From: Roseateles sp.
GTDB lineage: Bacteria > Pseudomonadota > Gammaproteobacteria > Burkholderiales > Burkholderiaceae_C
Reading direction: 5' to 3'
Length of the DNA: 64,000 nt
NCBI GenBank assembly: GCA_019234295.1
Contig: JAFALK010000046.1
Location: forward strand, 62,001 to 126,000
Shown here: positions 27,034 through 37,632 of the stretch, in pieces
Numbering within the stretch: position 1 is the stretch's first letter
How the letters are laid out: each line of letters begins with the position of its first letter
Position numbers and translations under genes: made by a program
Notes under the pieces: model-generated
The model's input: the letters and a program-made list of their open reading frames with translations, nothing else
What the model was told of the DNA's origin: nothing
Database searches by the model: none

Positions 27034-27338
27034 TGGACCAATCGGCTGCGATCTGGGCGGTCCTCGTGGCCGCGGCGCTCGCGGCCAACTGGCCTTATTT
27101 CAGCGAGCGCGTCCTCCTGGTGGGGCCGCGCCGCGCGCCCAAGAATGCCTGGTGGCGCTTGCTGGAGCTGGTGCTGCTGGGCATTGCCACTCTGTGCCTG
27201 GGCTTCGGGCTGGAGTCCTACCTGGGCCAGCGCCAGTCGCAGGGCTGGGCGTTCTACGCAGCGGCCGGCTTCCTGTTCATCACGCTGGGATTCCCGGGCT
27301 TCGTATGGCGCTACTTGCGCAAGCACCGCGATGAGTGA
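27033..27338 (+). CDS. DUF2818 family membrane protein, distal gene of the nuo operon
   Basis: A 101-residue hydrophobic protein with about three predicted helices (AAIWAVLVAAALAANWPYF, LLELVLLGIATLCLGFGLES and AFYAAAGFLFITLGFPGFVW). It resembles the DUF2818 family, which sits after nuoN in betaproteobacteria. The conserved NWPYFSER motif is followed by a positively charged loop. The ATG overlaps the nuoN stop by one base, and its own stop overlaps the Nudix gene by 8 nt. The location suggests a role in complex I assembly or stability, but the function is unknown. Confidence 0.82.
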   Translation: MDQSAAIWAVLVAAALAANWPYFSERVLLVGPRRAPKNAWWRLLELVLLGIATLCLGFGLESYLGQRQSQGWAFYAAAGFLFITLGFPGFVWRYLRKHRDE

Positions 27339-27903
27339 CGAACACCTGACCGAGACGCTGCTGTCTTCGGAGTCGGTGTATGAGGGGAACTTCCTCAAGG
27401 TCCACCGTGACCGCGTTCGCCTGCCCAATGGCCGTGAGGCCAGCCGCGAGTTCATCCGCCACCCCGGCGCAGTCATGATCGTCCCGTTGATGGAGGACGG
27501 TTCGCTGCTGGTGGAGCGCCAGTACCGCTACCCGATGGGCCAAGTCATGCTTGAGTTCCCGGCCGGCAAGCTCGATCCCAACGAGACGCCCTTGGTCTGT
27601 GGCCAGCGCGAATTGTTGGAGGAAACAGGTTACTCGGCCCGTGAATGGGCCTACGCCGGGGTGCTGCACAACGCCATCGCCTACTCCGACGAAGGCATCC
27701 ACATCTTCTTCGCCCGTGGCCTGAGTGCCGGCGAGCGCCACCTGGACGAAGGCGAGTTCTTGGACATCGTCACACACACGCCGGCCGAGCTCGATGCCCT
27801 GGCCTGCGCGGGTTTGCTGACCGACGCCAAGACCTTGATCGGCCTGCTGTGGCTCAGCCGCTGGCAAAGCGGCCAATGGACTCTGCCGTGGCAATCGTCC
27901 TGA
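27331..27903 (+). CDS. Nudix hydrolase, ADP-ribose pyrophosphatase type
   Basis: A 190-residue enzyme that probably hydrolyses ADP-ribose to AMP and ribose 5-phosphate (NudF-like). The Nudix box GKLDPNETPLVCGQRELLEETGY has the GX5EX7REXXEEXG pattern (core RELLEETGY). ERQYRYPMGQVMLEFPAGK upstream is typical of ADP-ribose pyrophosphatases. The ATG at 27331 overlaps the DUF2818 stop. Housecleaning of ADP-ribose next to the NADH-using complex I operon is plausible, but the link is positional. Confidence 0.9.
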   Translation: MSDEHLTETLLSSESVYEGNFLKVHRDRVRLPNGREASREFIRHPGAVMIVPLMEDGSLLVERQYRYPMGQVMLEFPAGKLDPNETPLVCGQRELLEETGYSAREWAYAGVLHNAIAYSDEGIHIFFARGLSAGERHLDEGEFLDIVTHTPAELDALACAGLLTDAKTLIGLLWLSRWQSGQWTLPWQSS

Positions 27904-28274
27904 ACTTGCAATGCGCGGCCGGCCATGCCTTCGAGGGCTGGTTCGGATCTGCAGAGGACTGCGACGCCCAGCAGGCGAGGGGGCTGCTCAGCTGCCCGGT
28001 CTGCGCGAACGGCGAAGTCAAGCGCATGCCGAGCGCGCCGCGTATCCAGGTCGGCGCGCCAGCGCCCGATCCCCGGCAGTTGTTGCGGCAGCTCCGCAGC
28101 CAGTCGGAAGATGTGGGCGAGCGTTTCGCCGAAGAAGCGCGCCGCATCCACCACGGCAAGGCGCCCGAACGGGCCATCCGCGGCCAAGCCAGCCTCGACG
28201 AAACGCGCGACTTGCTGGAGGAGGGGATTGCGGTCCTACCGCTCCCGGCGCTGTCGGACGACTCGCTGCACTGA
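27888..28274 (+). CDS. DUF1178 family protein (Zn-ribbon-like)
   Basis: A small protein of about 128 residues resembling DUF1178. The N-terminus NLQCAAGHAFEGWFGSAEDC and the motif LLSCPVCANGEVKRMPSAPRI contain CxxGH and CPxC groups that could bind zinc. The middle is a basic, Arg/Gln-rich helical stretch, and the tail ends in LEEGIAVLPLPALSDD. The GTG at 27888 fits the family N-terminus; an in-frame ATG at 27876 is an alternative. It overlaps the Nudix gene end. Function unknown. Confidence 0.8.
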   Translation: MAIVLNLQCAAGHAFEGWFGSAEDCDAQQARGLLSCPVCANGEVKRMPSAPRIQVGAPAPDPRQLLRQLRSQSEDVGERFAEEARRIHHGKAPERAIRGQASLDETRDLLEEGIAVLPLPALSDDSLH

Positions 28275-28332
28275 CGTTTCGTCGCTCCCAGCTGCATCCC
28301 GTCGGCCCAATCCCCCGGTCGTCGCCCGACTT

Positions 28333-28361
28333 TTGGCATAGGGGGGGGGCCCCTTTAGGAT
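28333..28361 (+). promoter_or_regulatory. Candidate promoter with G9 tract in the spacer (RND operon)
   Basis: TTGGCA (28333-28338) and TAGGAT (28356-28361) are separated by exactly 17 bp. The spacer is TA, nine G (28341-28349), CCCC and TT. The -35 matches the sigma-70 consensus at 5 of 6 bases and the -10 at 4 of 6. Homopolymer slippage here would change the spacing and so the strength of the promoter for the efflux pair that follows. Seen directly; function is inferred. Confidence 0.5.
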
Positions 28362-28397
28362 GCTTGAGTTTTCACAAATCCGCCGTCTGGAGAAGAG

Positions 28398-29552
28398 ATG
28401 AATCACCGTCTGCGCGCCCCCATCGCCCGCCCTCTGCTTGCCTTGGCTGTCGTCGCCGCGCTCACGACTCTGGCCGGCTGCCAGAAGTCCGGCGCCAAGG
28501 AGGACAAGGACAAGCTGCCGCCCGCCCTGCAACTCGCCGCCGAGGACAAGCTTGTCATGGGCGAAAGCGAGTTCAGCGATGGTCCGTTGATCACGGGCTC
28601 CGTCCAGGCCGAGCGCCGCGCTGACCTGCGCGCTGAAGTGGCTGCGGTGGTCCAGCAGGTCTTCAAGGAGAACGGCGAGTTCGTCCACAAGGGCGATCTG
28701 CTGGTGCGCCTTGACGCCACCTCGATCCGCGACAGTCTGAACTCGGCCGAGGAAGCCGTGCGCGCAGCGCGCGAAACCTACGCGCAGGCCGATCGGCAGT
28801 ACCAGCGCCAGAAGACGCTCCAGGCCGAGGGCATGATCTCCCAGCAGGCCTTGGACGACGCCGCGAACCGCCGCACCACGGCCCAGAGCGACCGCGTGGC
28901 GGCCGAGGCGCGGCTGGTGGCAGCGCGCCAGCAGCTCGACCGCACCGAGGCCCGGGCCCCATTCGACGGCATCGTCAGCGAGCGCCAGGTCTCGGCCGGC
29001 GACACCGCCCAGGTGGGCAAGGCACTGCTCAAGGTGATCGACCCGTCGAGCATGCGATTCGAGGGTTACGTCTCGGCTGACCAGCGTGCCAACCTCAAGA
29101 TCGGCCAAGTGGTGGACCTCAAGGTCATCGGTCTCGCGCAAAGCCAGCTGGAAGGCAAGATTCGCCGCATCGACGTGGCCGCCGACCCGGTGAGCCGCCA
29201 GGTCGCCGTGATCGTCGACTTTGCCGATCCGCGCTTGGCCAACGTGGCCGGCCTCTACGGCGAAGGCCACGTGCGCACCACCAGCACCGCTGCCCTGATG
29301 CTCGGCGAATCCGACCTGCAGCGCGATGGCGACGCCGCTTTCGCTTGGGTCGTGAAGGACAGCAAGCTGCATCGCCAGCCGATCAAGCTTGGTGAGCGCG
29401 ATTCGCGCAGCGGCGCCTTTCTCGTGACCGCGGGCCTGGCAACCGGCGACACGCTGATCCGCAATCCCAGCCGCACCCTCGTCGAAGGCACACCGGTGCA
29501 GGCCTCGGCCCGCGCTTCGGCCCCGGCGGCCAGCGGCGCCAAGGGAGCCTGA
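28398..29552 (+). CDS. RND efflux periplasmic adaptor lipoprotein
   Basis: A 384-residue membrane-fusion protein. A signal peptide ends in a lipobox (LAGC, lipidated Cys28). The lipoyl/barrel-sandwich half is QAERRADLRAEVAAVVQQVF (about 72-90) and its partner APFDGIVSERQVSAGDTAQVG (about 193-213); a coiled-coil hairpin of about residues 115-190 lies between them, followed by a beta-barrel domain. It couples the inner-membrane RND pump to an outer-membrane channel, which is not encoded nearby. The pump gene follows 4 nt after the stop. GGAGAAGAG lies directly before the ATG. The substrate is unknown. Confidence 0.93.
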   Translation: MNHRLRAPIARPLLALAVVAALTTLAGCQKSGAKEDKDKLPPALQLAAEDKLVMGESEFSDGPLITGSVQAERRADLRAEVAAVVQQVFKENGEFVHKGDLLVRLDATSIRDSLNSAEEAVRAARETYAQADRQYQRQKTLQAEGMISQQALDDAANRRTTAQSDRVAAEARLVAARQQLDRTEARAPFDGIVSERQVSAGDTAQVGKALLKVIDPSSMRFEGYVSADQRANLKIGQVVDLKVIGLAQSQLEGKIRRIDVAADPVSRQVAVIVDFADPRLANVAGLYGEGHVRTTSTAALMLGESDLQRDGDAAFAWVVKDSKLHRQPIKLGERDSRSGAFLVTAGLATGDTLIRNPSRTLVEGTPVQASARASAPAASGAKGA

Positions 29553-29556
29553 TGCC

Positions 29557-32500
29557 ATGCTGATCTCAGATTTCGCCATCAAGAAGCCGCTGGCAACGGT
29601 GGTCTTCATCATCAGCATCATGGCCTTGGGCCTCCTGGCGCTGTCCAAGCTCAAGGTCAACCAGAACCCGGACGTCCAGATTCCCATCCTGGTCGTCATC
29701 GTTCCCTATCCGGGCGCCTCGCCCGAGACTGCGGAGCGCGAGATCGTGAACCGTCTGGAGCGGCCACTGCAGGCTGTTTCGGGCGTCACCGAAGTGCAGG
29801 CCAACGCCCAGGAAGGGCAGGCCGTCTTCGTCATGAAGTTCGACTTCAAGAAGAACCTGATCGAGGCCACAGACGACGTACGCAATGCGATCGCCCAAGT
29901 GCGCTACTACCTGCCTCAGGAGATGCGCGAGCCCATCGTCCAGCGCGTCGACCCTTCGGCCGACCCGATCATGCAGCTCTCGCTGGAATCCAGCACGCTG
30001 AGCCATGCCGAGATCTCGCGTATCGCCGAGGACGACCTGGCCGACAAGTTCCGCGCCATCAACGGCGTGGGCACGGTGGAAATCTACGGCTCGCTGAACC
30101 GCGAGCTGTCGGTGCTGCTGTCGGGCCAGAAGCTGCGGGAGTTCAACGTCTCGGTCACAGAGGTCGTCAGCGCGCTGCGCAACCAGAACATGTCGGCCCC
30201 GGTCGGCAAAGTCCGGGGCGAATTCGAAGACCAGAGCATCCGCCTGATCGGCCGCGTGCCCACGCCGGCGGAGTTCAACGCCATCGTCGTTCGCAAGAGC
30301 GCCACCGGTGAACTCGTGCGCCTGGGCCAAGTGGCCCAGATCGAAGACGGCTTCGCCGAGCGGGCCCATCTGTCGGTGCGCAACACACGCCCCAATGTCG
30401 GCATCAACATCACCCGTTCGCGTGAGGCGTCGACGGTCAGCGTGGCCAAGGCGGTGCGCAAGATCATCGAGGACACTCGCAAGACCCTGCCCCAGGGCAC
30501 GACGCTGGACATCATTGACGACGGCGGCGAGCACGCCCAGGACAGCCTGAACAACGTGGTGGACGCGCTCGCCCTGGGCGCAGGCCTGACCATCTTCGTT
30601 GTCTATGTGTTCCTGAACAGCTGGCGCTCGACGCTGATCACGGCCACGTCGCTGCCGACCTCGGTCATCGCCGCCTTCATCGCCGTCTGGCTGTGCGGAT
30701 TCACGCTCAACTTCATGAGCCTGCTGGGCCTGTCGCTGGCCATCGGCGTGTTGATTGATGACGCCATCGTGGTGCGCGAGAACATCGTGCGCCACATGGA
30801 GCGCGGTGCCGACCGCCGCACCGCCGCCTTCAAGGGCACGGCTGAGATCGGTCTGGCCGTCGCCGCCACCACCTTCTCCATCGTCGCCGTGTTCGTGCCC
30901 GTCGCCTTCATCCCCGGCATCTCGGGCGAGTGGTTCCGCCCGTTCGCGCTGACCGTCGTGGCCTCGGTGCTGGTGAGCCTGCTGATCTCCTTCACGCTCG
31001 ACCCCATGCTGTCGGCTTTCTGGGGCGACCCCCCGGGCCACCATTTGGCGCCCAAGAAGGGCATCTCGCTGTGGCTTCAGAAGTTCAACCACTGGTTCGA
31101 TCACCAAGCCGACCGCTACGGCGACGTGATCGCCTGGGCGCTCCATCATCGTCGCATCATGGGCGCGATCGCTGCACTCAGTTTCGTGGGCGCCATTGCA
31201 CTGCAGTACCAGTTCGGTGGCACCGAGTTCGTTCCGAAATCTGACTTCGGCTTCATCGCCGTCGATGTCCGCACGCCGCCCAGCGCCAGTCTCGAATATG
31301 CGCGCAAGAAGTTCGCCGCCGTCGAGGCAATCGCCCGCCAGGTCCCCGAGGTGAAGAGCACCGACAGCGGGATCAACAGCGTCGGCGGCAAGATCTGGAT
31401 CGGTCTTGGCAAGAGCACGGAGCGCAAGCGCAACGCCCAGGAGATCGCCGCCGACCTGCGCGAGCGCCTCAGGGTGCTGACGGGCGCCGAGTACGTGGTC
31501 CTGGATGACCTGAACAACGGTGCGCAAAAGCCCGTGCAGATCAACTTCTACGGCACCGACACGCGCACGCTGATGTCCATGACCGAGGACTATATGCAGC
31601 GCCTGCGCAAGGTGCCGGGTGCGGTGGACGTGGGCCTGTCGCGCCAGGACACGCAGGACGAAATCCAGATCGAGCTGCACCGCGGCCTGGCCAATGCCAT
31701 GGGCATTTCGGTCGGTGATGCTGCCAATGCGCTGCGCGTGGCCTTCGCCGGCCTGCAGGTCGGCGACTGGATCGACCCCACCGGCAAGACTCGCGACGTG
31801 TCCGTGCGCCTGCAGGCTTCCGACCGCGTGGACGCCGCCAATATCGAGCGCCTGCCCATCACCGTGGCCGGCACCGGCCAGATGGTGCCGCTGGGCCAGA
31901 TTGCCACCATCACCATGGGCAAGGGCCCGGCCGGCATCCAGCACCTGGACGGCAAGCGCACGGTCGGAGTCAGCGCCAACGTGCAGGGTCGGGCGGCCGG
32001 CGAAGTCTCCGCCGACGCCATGAAGTTGGCCCAGGCCATGAGCTTCCCGCCCGGATATGGCATCAAGCTCGGCGGCGCGTCCAAGGATCAGGAAGAGGTG
32101 TTCGGCTCGCTGGGCATCGGCCTGATCTCGGGCATTGGCCTGATGTACCTGGTGCTCGTGATCCAGTTCAACTCGTTCACCGCACCACTGGCCGTGATGC
32201 TCTCGCAGCCCCTGTCGCTGATCGGCGTGGTGCTGGCGCTCCTGATCACGAAGGGCACGCTGAACCTGATGAGCCTGATCGGCATCGTGATGCTGGCAGG
32301 CCTGGTCGCCAAGAACGCCATCCTGCTGCTCGACGCCGCGCGCGCCGAGGAGAGGGCCGGCGTACCGCGCGAGGAGGCCCTGATGCACGCGGGCCGCAAG
32401 CGTTTCCGCCCGATCCTGATGACGACCTTTGCGCTGATCGCTGGCATGCTGCCGGTGGCTATCGGCATGGGCGAGGGCGGCGAGTTCTACCGTCCGATGG

Positions 32501-32781
32501 CTGTGGCCATCATCGGCGGCACGATCACCTCGACCTTCCTCACGCTGCTGATGGTGCCCAGCTTCTACGACAGCATCGAGATCGCGCGCGACCGCATGTT
32601 CGCCAAATTCAATCGGCGTGCCGAGCGCTGGACGGCGCTCCCGGCCTTCTTCGTGACCTTCGTCGAGGCTATTCTGACGCTGGTGCTCGTGCGCTTCGGG
32701 TTCCGCTCGATCCTGCGTGGCTGGCACTGGCTGCGCCGCGGCAACGAAGTGCCCGTCACCAAGACTGCCGGCGCCGACTGA
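29557..32781 (+). CDS. RND efflux permease (HAE1/AcrB-like)
   Basis: A 1074-residue inner-membrane proton/drug antiporter of the RND superfamily, with 12 helices in two homologous halves and two large periplasmic loops. TM1 is residues ~12-32. The proton-relay Asp pair is D401-D402 in [14 protein letters not shown] second relay Lys region is LAGLVAKNAILLLDAAR in the C-terminal half. The periplasmic entry PYPGASPETAEREIVNRLE is typical of HAE1 pumps. It forms a pair with the adaptor upstream; no outer-membrane factor is adjacent. The length is normal, unlike the second RND locus in this window. Confidence 0.94.
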   Translation: MLISDFAIKKPLATVVFIISIMALGLLALSKLKVNQNPDVQIPILVVIVPYPGASPETAEREIVNRLERPLQAVSGVTEVQANAQEGQAVFVMKFDFKKNLIEATDDVRNAIAQVRYYLPQEMREPIVQRVDPSADPIMQLSLESSTLSHAEISRIAEDDLADKFRAINGVGTVEIYGSLNRELSVLLSGQKLREFNVSVTEVVSALRNQNMSAPVGKVRGEFEDQSIRLIGRVPTPAEFNAIVVRKSATGELVRLGQVAQIEDGFAERAHLSVRNTRPNVGINITRSREASTVSVAKAVRKIIEDTRKTLPQGTTLDIIDDGGEHAQDSLNNVVDALALGAGLTIFVVYVFLNSWRSTLITATSLPTSVIAAFIAVWLCGFTLNFMSLLGLSLAIGVLIDDAIVVRENIVRHMERGADRRTAAFKGTAEIGLAVAATTFSIVAVFVPVAFIPGISGEWFRPFALTVVASVLVSLLISFTLDPMLSAFWGDPPGHHLAPKKGISLWLQKFNHWFDHQADRYGDVIAWALHHRRIMGAIAALSFVGAIALQYQFGGTEFVPKSDFGFIAVDVRTPPSASLEYARKKFAAVEAIARQVPEVKSTDSGINSVGGKIWIGLGKSTERKRNAQEIAADLRERLRVLTGAEYVVLDDLNNGAQKPVQINFYGTDTRTLMSMTEDYMQRLRKVPGAVDVGLSRQDTQDEIQIELHRGLANAMGISVGDAANALRVAFAGLQVGDWIDPTGKTRDVSVRLQASDRVDAANIERLPITVAGTGQMVPLGQIATITMGKGPAGIQHLDGKRTVGVSANVQGRAAGEVSADAMKLAQAMSFPPGYGIKLGGASKDQEEVFGSLGIGLISGIGLMYLVLVIQFNSFTAPLAVMLSQPLSLIGVVLALLITKGTLNLMSLIGIVMLAGLVAKNAILLLDAARAEERAGVPREEALMHAGRKRFRPILMTTFALIAGMLPVAIGMGEGGEFYRPMAVAIIGGTITSTFLTLLMVPSFYDSIEIARDRMFAKFNRRAERWTALPAFFVTFVEAILTLVLVRFGFRSILRGWHWLRRGNEVPVTKTAGAD

Positions 32782-34590: not shown

Positions 34591-35766
34591 ATGATTTCCG
34601 ACTCTCTCGACACGCTGCGAGGCGTCGTGCACACGCTGCGCGAACGCTTTCGTGAAGGGCGGCTGGGCCAGACGGCCGGCAGCCTGACCTTCACGACCCT
34701 GATCTCCCTGGTGCCCCTGATCACTGTCGGCCTGGCCCTGTTCTCGGCCTTCCCGATGTTCAAGTCTTTTCAGGCGGCTTTGGAACAGTACTTTCTCAAG
34801 AGCCTGGTGCCCGACACCATCGCCAAGCCCGTATTGGCTTCACTCACGCTCTTCGCCTCCAAGGCCAGCCGGCTCGGGACGCTGGGACTCGTGCTGCTTG
34901 GCGTGTCGGCGCTTGCCATGGTGTTCACCATCGATCGCACGCTCAACACCATCTGGCAGGTGCAGCGCCCACGACCGCTCGCGCAACGCGTGCTCGTCTA
35001 CTGGGCCGCGCTGACGCTGGGCCCGCTGGCCCTGGGCGGTAGCCTCGCCGTCACGAGCTATGCCATTTCGGCCAGCGGTGGCCTCGTGCAGCAGATGCCG
35101 GGCGGACTGGCGATGCTGCTGGAAATGATCGAGTTCGTGCTCCTGCTGTGCGGCGTGGCCGGGCTCTTCCACTACGTGCCCAACACCCATGTGCGCTGGC
35201 GGCATGCCTTTTTCGGCGCGGGCTTCGTGGCCGTGGTGTTTACGGGAGCGAAGAGCGGGCTGGCCTGGTACGTCAAGAGTGTGCCGACCTATTCAACGCT
35301 CTACGGTGCCTTCGCCACCGTACCCATCTTCTTGATCTGGCTGTATCTGGGCTGGATCATCATGCTCGTCGGCGCCGTGCTGGCGGCGAGTGCGCCAAGC
35401 CTGGTCCTGGGCCTGCATCGGCGGCGCGAGGCGCCAGGCTTGGCGCTGGCGCTGGCCGTCGAGGTGCTGCGGGCGCTGGACGACCTCAAAGGGAAGGGCG
35501 TGCACGGGCTGCCGCAACTCGAGCTGGCTCAGCATCTGCGCATTGATCCGCTGCAGCTCGAGCCTGTCCTCGACAGGCTGCTCTCTCTGGACCTGATCGG
35601 CCGGCTGGAGGAAGAGGGGGCGCAGCGTCTCGTGCTGCTGTGCGACCCCGCCAAGACGCCCGCGGCGCCGCTGCTGCGGCGCCTGCTCGCGCGCCGCTCA
35701 GGCACGCTGCAAAGGCTTTGGGATCGATCGAACTGGGAAACGCTGAAGCTCGCCGAATTGTTCTAG
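34591..35766 (+). CDS. YihY/BrkB family inner-membrane protein
   Basis: A 391-residue membrane protein of the YihY (virulence factor BrkB, formerly RNase BN) family. The first helix LTFTTLISLVPLITVGLALF is a family signature; further parts are ALAMVFTIDRTLNTIWQV, FHYVPNTHVRWRHAFFGAGF and WLYLGWIIMLVGAVLAA. About six transmembrane helices are followed by a cytoplasmic C-terminal domain of ~120 residues. It is not a ribonuclease despite older names; the substrate or partner is unknown. The ATG at 34591 is an assumption; 34579 is also in frame. It converges with the XRE-cupin gene, whose last codons overlap. Confidence 0.88.
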   Translation: MISDSLDTLRGVVHTLRERFREGRLGQTAGSLTFTTLISLVPLITVGLALFSAFPMFKSFQAALEQYFLKSLVPDTIAKPVLASLTLFASKASRLGTLGLVLLGVSALAMVFTIDRTLNTIWQVQRPRPLAQRVLVYWAALTLGPLALGGSLAVTSYAISASGGLVQQMPGGLAMLLEMIEFVLLLCGVAGLFHYVPNTHVRWRHAFFGAGFVAVVFTGAKSGLAWYVKSVPTYSTLYGAFATVPIFLIWLYLGWIIMLVGAVLAASAPSLVLGLHRRREAPGLALALAVEVLRALDDLKGKGVHGLPQLELAQHLRIDPLQLEPVLDRLLSLDLIGRLEEEGAQRLVLLCDPAKTPAAPLLRRLLARRSGTLQRLWDRSNWETLKLAELF

Positions 35767-36341
35767 GCGTGCAGCACCACGAGCAGTGCCGTAGCCACCG
35801 TCTTGCCCGTATTTCGGATCGCGTGAGGGCCGTCCACCGCATAACGCGCAGTTTCACCTGACTGCAGTTGTCGGCTGGTCCCACTGGCGGTGACTTCAAC
35901 ATGGCCGCTGAGCACACTCAGATGCTCGCGCGAGCCAGGCTCGTGGGCGGCCGATTCGAGTGCGCCGCCGGGCTGCATGCTCAGCTCGTACCACTCGAAC
36001 TGGCCGGCCAGCTCGATCGGGCCGAGGATGCGCAGGCTGCACAGGCCGTCGGGCGTGGCCAGCAAGGGCGTGGCGTGGGCGGGCACGGTCTGGATGGTCG
36101 GGGCAGCGGTCTTCTCGCCACCCAGCAGCTCGGCCATGTCCACCCGCAGGGCATTCGCGAGTCGCCAGACCACGGCCACGGTCGGATTGGCCTGGTTGCG
36201 TTCGATCTGCGAGAGCATGGATTTGGATACGCCAGCCCGCCGAGACAACTCGTCCAGGGACAGTCCCTGCGCCTGACGGAGCGATTGCAGCGTGGCGCCC
36301 ACCTGGGGCGGCGCGGAAGACTCGGGAGACGCAATGGACAT
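35763..36341 (-). CDS. XRE-cupin transcriptional regulator
   Basis: A 192-residue regulator with an N-terminal XRE helix-turn-helix (LRQAQGLSLDELSRRAGVSKSMLSQIERNQANPTVAVVWRLANAL, core LSRRAGVSKSMLSQIERNQ, about residues 23-60) and a C-terminal cupin domain (about 120-190, MQPGGALESAAHEPGSREHLSVLSG and ARYAVDGPHAIRNTG). Such proteins repress or activate amino-acid catabolism genes and sense a small molecule in the cupin. It is divergent from kbl-tdh, with a strong palindrome in the shared intergenic region. The ATG at 36341 is chosen by family N-terminus. Confidence 0.9.
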   Translation of the reverse strand: MSIASPESSAPPQVGATLQSLRQAQGLSLDELSRRAGVSKSMLSQIERNQANPTVAVVWRLANALRVDMAELLGGEKTAAPTIQTVPAHATPLLATPDGLCSLRILGPIELAGQFEWYELSMQPGGALESAAHEPGSREHLSVLSGHVEVTASGTSRQLQSGETARYAVDGPHAIRNTGKTVATALLVVLHA

Positions 36342-36364
36342 GCTTGACCTGGCTGCTTGATTCC

Positions 36365-36392
36365 TTGATACTGCACAAAAGTTCGATATATC
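36365..36392 (+). promoter_or_regulatory. Candidate kbl-tdh promoter
   Basis: TTGATA (36365-36370) and TATATC (36387-36392) are spaced by 16 bp upstream of kbl. The -10 overlaps the palindromic operator at 36378-36399, as expected for a repressed promoter. Four of six -10 bases match the consensus. Confidence 0.4.
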
Positions 36393-36399
36393 GAACTTT
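36378..36399. promoter_or_regulatory. Palindromic operator between the XRE-cupin regulator and kbl
   Basis: A perfect 22-bp inverted repeat with half-site AAAGTTCGATA, extended by CAC/GTG flanks to 14 bp per arm apart from one extra A on the left. It lies centrally between the divergent regulator and the kbl-tdh genes, so it is the likely binding site of the XRE-cupin dimer. Confidence 0.75.
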
Positions 36400-36435
36400 G
36401 TGTAATTTGATGGATTGTGCACCAGGAGTAGAGCG

Positions 36436-37632
36436 ATGACCACCGCCTTTTACGAGCATCTGCAAGCCGAACTGGCGGGCATCCGCGAAGCGGGTCTGTA
36501 CAAGACCGAACGCCTGATCGCCTCGCCCCAGGGCGCCACCGTGCGCCTGGCCGACGGCCGCGAGCTGATCAATCTGTGCGCTAACAACTACCTGGGCTTG
36601 TCCTCGCACCCCGACGTCGTGGAAGCTGCGCACGAGGCGCTGCGAACCCATGGCTACGGCCTGTCGTCGGTGCGCTTCATCTGCGGCACGCAGGACCTGC
36701 ACAAGCAGCTCGAGGCGCGCATTTCCGGGTTCCTGGGCACCGAGGACACCATCCTCTACGCCGCCGCCTTCGACGCCAATGGCGGCCTCTTCGAGCCACT
36801 GCTGCAGGAGCAGGACGCCGTCATCAGTGACGAGCTCAACCACGCCTCCATCATCGACGGCATCCGCCTGTGCAAGGCCAAGCGCTTTCGCTACAAGCAC
36901 AACGACATGGCGGATCTGGAGCGTTGCCTCCAGGAAGCGAGGGCTGCCGCGGCCCGCTTCACGATGGTGTTCACCGACGGTGTGTTCTCCATGGACGGCA
37001 CCATCGCCCAGCTCGACAAGATCCGCGCGCTGTGCGATCAGTACGGTGCATTGCTCGGCGTGGACGAATGCCACGCCAGTGGCTTCATGGGCAAGCGCGG
37101 CCGCGGCACGCATGAGGAGCGCGGCGTGTTCGGCAAGATCGACATCATCACCGGCACGCTGGGTAAGGCCCTGGGCGGCGCCTCGGGCGGCTTCACCTCC
37201 GGCCGCAAGGAAGTGATCGAGCTGCTGCGCCAGCGCTCGCGCCCCTACCTGTTCTCCAACACCGTGGCACCGAGCATCGTCGGCGCCTCGATCAAGGTGC
37301 TGGACCTGCTGGAGGCCTCCACGGCACTGCGCGACAAGCTCGAGGTGAATACGCGCTACTTCCGCGCCGCCATCCAGGAGGCCGGTTTCGAGATCAAGCC
37401 CGGGACCCACCCCATCGTGCCCATCATGGTGTACGACGCCGCGCTGGCCCAAAAGCTGAGCGCGCGCCTGCTGGAGCTTGGCGTCTACGCGGTCGGCTTC
37501 TTTTTTCCCGTCGTGCCCAAGGGGCAGGCCCGCATCCGCACACAGATGTCGGCCGGTCTCGATCGTCATCACCTCGAAAAAGCCGTCGCCGCATTCAAGC
37601 AGGCCGGCACCGAACTCGGCATCCTGAAATAA
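36436..37632 (+). CDS. kbl: Glycine C-acetyltransferase (2-amino-3-ketobutyrate CoA ligase)
   Basis: A 398-residue fold-I PLP enzyme that cleaves 2-amino-3-ketobutyrate with CoA into glycine and acetyl-CoA. The PLP Lys is K244 in [14 protein letters not shown], the same number as in E. coli Kbl. Other markers are [30 protein letters not shown] and [10 protein letters not shown]. The ATG at 36436 has AGGAG upstream; an in-frame start at 36415 gives a non-conserved extension. It is followed after 8 nt by tdh; together they form the threonine-to-glycine route. Confidence 0.97.

Follow-up and report, generated by a model that had tools for sequence, protein, structure and literature searches.

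The RND efflux operon in the window, i.e. the whole 64,000-nt stretch of Roseateles sp. DNA that was analysed, is very probably preceded by a real promoter, as judged from its letters and their conservation. The explanation that we favour, and consider reasonably probable, is that of a conserved, genuine promoter whose spacer drifts freely in sequence and has acquired a slippage-prone run of nine G residues (G9), with tuning of pump expression rather than a switch as the expected effect. The features concerned are given below in coordinates of the window.

27334-27903, forward strand: NUDIX hydrolase gene, conserved upstream neighbour (domain search, neighbourhoods of relatives)
27888-28274, forward strand: DUF1178 gene between the NUDIX gene and the operon (domain search; detected in 3 of 28 relatives)
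28326-28332, forward strand: upstream half of the conserved block, CCGACTT here and ATGACCT or similar in relatives (alignment and column profile; GAC is retained in the window)
28333-28338, forward strand: putative -35 hexamer TTGGCA (letters and scan; aligned with CTGGCG, CCGGCA, CCAGCA or ATGGCA of relatives)
28339-28355, forward strand: putative 17-nt promoter spacer, conserved in length and mostly not in sequence
28341-28349, forward strand: G9 homopolymer (letters; missing from all 28 relatives compared)
28356-28361, forward strand: putative -10 hexamer TAGGAT (letters and scan; set on TATGCT of close relatives by ungapped alignment)
28359-28364, forward strand: alternative -10 GATGCT, 20 nt from -35 (resembles TATGCTTG of relatives, three bases further out)
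28398-29552, forward strand: RND periplasmic adaptor (membrane fusion) gene (Pfam HlyD_D23/HlyD_3; NCBIfam RND_mfp above cut-off)
29557-32781, forward strand: RND inner-membrane permease gene, AcrB superfamily (Pfam ACR_tran; best-scoring solved chain MdtB)

The adaptor and permease carry the domains of an RND efflux pair, scoring 819.3 bits for PF00873 and 200.8 bits for RND_mfp, both over cut-off. No named NCBIfam RND permease subfamily was reached by the permease, the best being RND_permease_2 at 773.7 bits vs. a cut-off of 1250. A search of the nearest neighbours (NUDIX, DUF1178 and FAD-linked oxidase) revealed no regulator gene. A gene for an HTH-cupin regulator is located on the opposite strand at 35763-36443, approximately 3 kb downstream of the pump operon, with no evidence tying both together.

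Direct reading of the letters confirmed the claim of the initial annotation that nine Gs lie exactly inside the 17-bp spacer between TTGGCA and TAGGAT, the gap reading T A G9 CCCC TT. TAGGAT is followed at 36 nt by the adaptor ATG, with GGAG five bases 5' of this start codon. Using a consensus scan of both strands of 27800-28600 (801 bases), TTGGCA-17-TAGGAT was obtained as the sole promoter-like site, with 9 of 12 matches; 50 dinucleotide shuffles of the same region contained a mean of 0.0 such sites. The site has the layout of a sigma-70-type promoter, i.e. hexamers near consensus at 16-18 nt from each other, and carries a G/C homopolymer between -35 and -10, as promoters of the porA type do.

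Regions upstream of the adaptor gene were collected from 32 related loci (L010-L012, L039-L045, L049-L051 and L052-L070), which were reduced to 28 by removing four duplicates: L049, L052, L053 and L054 equal L042, L040, L039 and L041, respectively, with exact common upstream stretches of at least 370 nt. L010-L012 were taken at 50-58% identity and other loci from the same search, at 32% or less, were left out, as were L046-L048 (25-26% identity; 3 of the 10 loci in their search). Named relatives include Roseateles caseinilyticus, R. saccharophilus and Pelomonas aquatica. Genus g47 contributes, from its more distant part, 16 loci with 50-53% adaptor identity, and the source genome is the single representative of its genus in the comparison. 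The permease gene is located downstream in all 28 relatives.

Upstream of 25 of the 28 related operons, a finder that favours 17 nt located a block resembling CATGACCTCTGGC-N17-TAAGCT, in exact or degenerate form; 16 of these 25 belong to one part of one genus (g47), so that rows are not independent. The 25 operons are exactly those that retain the upstream NUDIX gene. With the same finder, the three exceptions gave a spacing of 18 (L044), a spacing of 20 (L045) and nothing (L043). The 16 distant g47 loci mostly carry CATGACCTCTGGC and the closer relatives CACGACTTCCGGCA, CAGGACTTCCAGCA or CATGACTGATGGC, followed by TAAGCT, TATGCT or a near form.

Since this first finder penalised spacings other than 17, the test was repeated without spacing weight. 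In this unweighted test, in which the block sought was itself derived from the same sequences, 21 of 29 rows could be scored and all 21 had a spacing of 17 nt; in 200 dinucleotide-shuffled sets, never more than two rows agreed on one spacing. The eight rows that could not be scored are L012, L042, L043, L044, L045, L057, L060 and the window. Outside g47, the unweighted test gave 17 nt in g127 (L050, L051), g14 (L010) and g8 (L011), and the 17 nt of g22 (L012) comes from the weighted finder only. The candidate RND-operon promoter of the initial annotation is thereby supported as the operon's own conserved promoter, with a 17-nt spacing held in relatives.

Searching 20 g47 genomes for GACCTCTGGC, a gap of 15-21 and TAAGCT returned one match in each of 14 genomes, always just upstream of the RND operon and at one spacing, and a reversed control returned none; the exact g47 string is absent from the other six. 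When 399 sampled genomes of the family were searched with a gap of 12-24, the exact string was found in four, all of g47 and all at the RND operon, with 12 chance matches for the reversed control. The exact string is thus confined to g47 in this sample, and the wider family shares the degenerate form only. A genome-wide regulon of the motif was rejected, the exact g47 string occurring once per genome and at the RND operon only (14 of 20 g47 genomes).

A column profile was derived from the 25 relatives with the block, excluding L043-L045, in which the motif is missing, and numbering columns from the first base of -10. At least 1 bit is held by columns -31 to -19, by -3 and -2, and by five of the six -10 columns. 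Columns -17 to -4 hold 0.17-0.78 bits, and G9 occupies -15 to -7, wholly within these weakly conserved columns. At conserved columns, the window deviates three times: it has C at -30 and T at -2, where 96% of relatives have A and G, respectively, and A at the fifth base of -10, where C is found in 25 of 25 relatives.

Following alignment by MAFFT, the window and seven of the nearer relatives line up without internal gap and TAGGAT falls on TATGCT. In addition, GGATGCTTG of the window resembles TATGCTTG of relatives, shifted by 3 nt away from -35, which would place GATGCT at 20 nt from -35. The -10 could therefore be mis-assigned. TAGGAT is preferred over GATGCT because it keeps the conserved distance.

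According to the favoured explanation, RNA polymerase with a housekeeping sigma factor would read TTGGCA-17-TAGGAT and start transcription near 28368, some 30 nt upstream of the ATG. Across several genera, selection would preserve the -10, the -35-like block and the 17 nt that separate them, with almost no constraint on the centre of the spacer; in the source lineage, this free spacer would have drifted to TA-G9-C4-TT with retention of the 17-nt length. G9 is presumably long enough to slip at replication, giving rise to a minority of cells with a spacer of 16 or 18 nt. A one-base slip would probably cause modest changes in expression, so that tuning rather than on/off behaviour is expected. 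In E. coli library promoters with a consensus backbone, the maximum strength reached is similar for spacers of 16, 17 and 18 bp, and high expression extends over 15-19 bp (PMC8695583, in the part of the source available); a one-base slip thus need not be on/off. Where hexamers are weaker, sensitivity to spacer length may be greater than in this consensus-backbone library. The comparison gives no sign that instability was selected as a switch, and evolved phase variation is possible, not indicated by the comparison. The G9 run may also be harmless or an artefact, a caveat of the initial annotation that stands.

Comparison of the tract across relatives, suggested earlier as a check, did not bear out a shared repeat: G9 is absent from all 28, in which G/C runs reach a length of 4 at most within the 25 spacers identified and of 6 at most anywhere in the 300 nt preceding the matched portion of the gene. 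Retention of the tract as a repeat in relatives, which is typical of porA-type promoters and not strictly required, was thus not observed. Elsewhere in the relatives' genomes, G/C runs of at least 9 do occur among the matches listed for a variable-gap pattern, in which one tract is counted repeatedly.

Expected numbers of G/C runs were calculated with a second-order Markov model. The 64-kb window contains one run of at least 9 vs. 0.07 expected. For the 4.47-Mb genome, to which the model trained on the window only was scaled, 27 runs of at least 8 were seen vs. 27.1 expected, 8 of at least 9 vs. 5.1, and 5 of at least 10 vs. 0.9, the last being an excess (19 runs of exactly 8, three of 9, four of 10 and one of 11). 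G9 is rare, yet there is no genome-level anomaly; runs of at least 10 exceed expectation, a hint that the source genome tolerates or favours long tracts. That the genome is rich in contingency tracts was rejected, runs of at least 9 being about as frequent as expected, though those of at least 10 are in excess.

The 123-nt gap at 28275-28397 offers 115 places to a 9-mer, of which 9 (8%) lie wholly in the spacer. Taken with approximately six intergenic tracts in the genome, this placement makes one tract in some promoter spacer not very unlikely. Two of the other seven tracts are located in genes with Pfam domains (holin-X-like and radical SAM) and five are apparently intergenic, adjoining argJ, the gene of an NMT1-type binding protein, phosphatidylserine decarboxylase (downstream of the stop) and two ORFs without Pfam match.

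Two of the tracts deserve a separate description. A G10 tract at 2213-2222 of L075 is situated some 18 codons past an in-frame ATG, within an ORF that has a Phage_holin_3_6 domain; slippage would shift the frame here, which makes this tract a candidate coding contingency tract. The longest G/C run found, with 11 bases, is located at 2005-2015 of L071, about 130 nt before the ORF of an NMT1-type substrate-binding protein.

True phase variation is the rival that survives best, and we consider it unlikely. G9 would then be a contingency locus, at which slipped-strand mispairing gives 16 or 18 nt and pump expression differs among cells of one population. A little more doubtful is the fuller proposal that the RND pump operon is phase-variable through G9 in the conserved spacer, with the slippage site exactly where relatives fix 17 nt, and that reversible efflux bet-hedging results.

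Bordetella pertussis belongs to the same order as the source organism. In an available excerpt on this species (PMC1891110), C/G tracts longer than 8 bases are more frequent than chance predicts, G9 and G10 alleles occur as a mixture ahead of BP3651 in strain 18323, mixed profiles were obtained from single colonies of two variable strains and the fimX transcript is 3.8-fold lower with the longer allele. The G9/G10 mixture and the mixed colonies make slippage at G9 plausible (PMC1891110, same excerpt). With its position at 49-57 nt before the ATG, the tract also falls in the 21-80 nt class which, by the rule given in that excerpt, is likeliest to overlap a promoter. In Neisseria meningitidis, unstable homopolymers between -10 and -35 of porA, opc and fetA alter expression, as described in the accessible part of PMC2791445, and such known phase variation in spacers makes switching at G9 plausible. 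The excess of runs of at least 10 in the source genome is a further point on this side. From the phase-variation reading of the initial annotation, what held up is therefore the position of the tract, which lies wholly inside the spacer of a promoter with conserved 17-nt spacing, as in the known phase-variable promoters of that source. Variation of tract length or of expression from cell to cell has no support so far: the tract occurs in 0 of 28 relatives, and spacers of 16-18 bp perform alike in E. coli (PMC8695583, available part). Further counter-evidence comes from the source genome, where runs of at least 9 are near expectation, no recognisable surface antigen is encoded at any of the other seven tracts (two of the genes have no Pfam match), and scanning each of the five other intergenic tracts revealed no promoter-like site at any of them.

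Alternatively, the conserved block could mainly be the operator of a regulator and overlap the promoter, half of it being missing in the source lineage, with altered regulation and no slippage switch as the outcome. Conservation indeed reaches CATGACC upstream of -35, and a dyad CTGGC-N8-GCCAG, present in nine of the 16 distant g47 operons (L056, L058, L059, L061, L062 and L066-L069), extends across -35 and spacer; of this dyad, the window has the left-arm-like TTGGC without the right arm. The remaining 12 relatives, with the closest among them, likewise have no such dyad, and a loss in the window is therefore not required. As the nearest neighbours searched include no regulator gene and the HTH-cupin gene is not linked to the operon by evidence, we regard an operator as improbable.

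The assembled length of G9 might also be wrong and the true spacer have another number of Gs. The genome consists of 97 contigs with 86.74% completeness and homopolymers are prone to artefacts (PMC8808543, in the portion available), but an erroneous length would match the 17-nt spacing of relatives exactly by luck only, and an assembly error is accordingly the least likely of the rivals considered so far. A terminator or RNA element was rejected, given that scanning revealed no terminator-like site, the DNA fold had a z of 0.00 vs. shuffles and no Rfam match was obtained at E up to 1.

Should the tract switch, efflux capacity would be varied reversibly between cells without a dedicated regulator, providing a route to transient tolerance. 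To our knowledge, such switching is known mainly for surface proteins of host-adapted bacteria. With the conserved promoter and drifting spacer that we prefer, the locus would be of value even without switching, as a clean natural case of conserved spacing combined with a drifting spacer sequence. A literature search on phase variation combined with efflux or homopolymeric promoters returned, judged by titles and the beginnings of abstracts, nothing on a homopolymer in an RND promoter spacer, and none was found on Roseateles RND efflux.

Three known systems can be set beside the G9 locus. At mtrR/mtrCDE of Neisseria gonorrhoeae, a 13-bp inverted repeat lies between -10 and -35, and deletion of one of its bases changes expression of the RND pump (PMC6692510, in the section available). 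A spacer change of one base bears on RND efflux in the gonococcus and may do so at the G9 locus; the gonococcal spacer belongs to the repressor gene mtrR, whereas the nearest neighbours searched at the G9 locus include no repressor gene. The C-stretch promoters of fim2, fim3 and fimX of Bordetella likewise have a G/C tract at the promoter, and its length affects transcription in Bordetella (PMC1891110, excerpt); variation across strains was shown there, whereas G9 was seen in one genome, with relatives lacking the tract. The porA, opc and fetA promoters share with the G9 locus a homopolymer inside the promoter spacer; their tracts are unstable, alter expression and belong to surface antigens (PMC2791445, accessible part), whereas the G9 tract, which may be unstable, belongs to an efflux pump.
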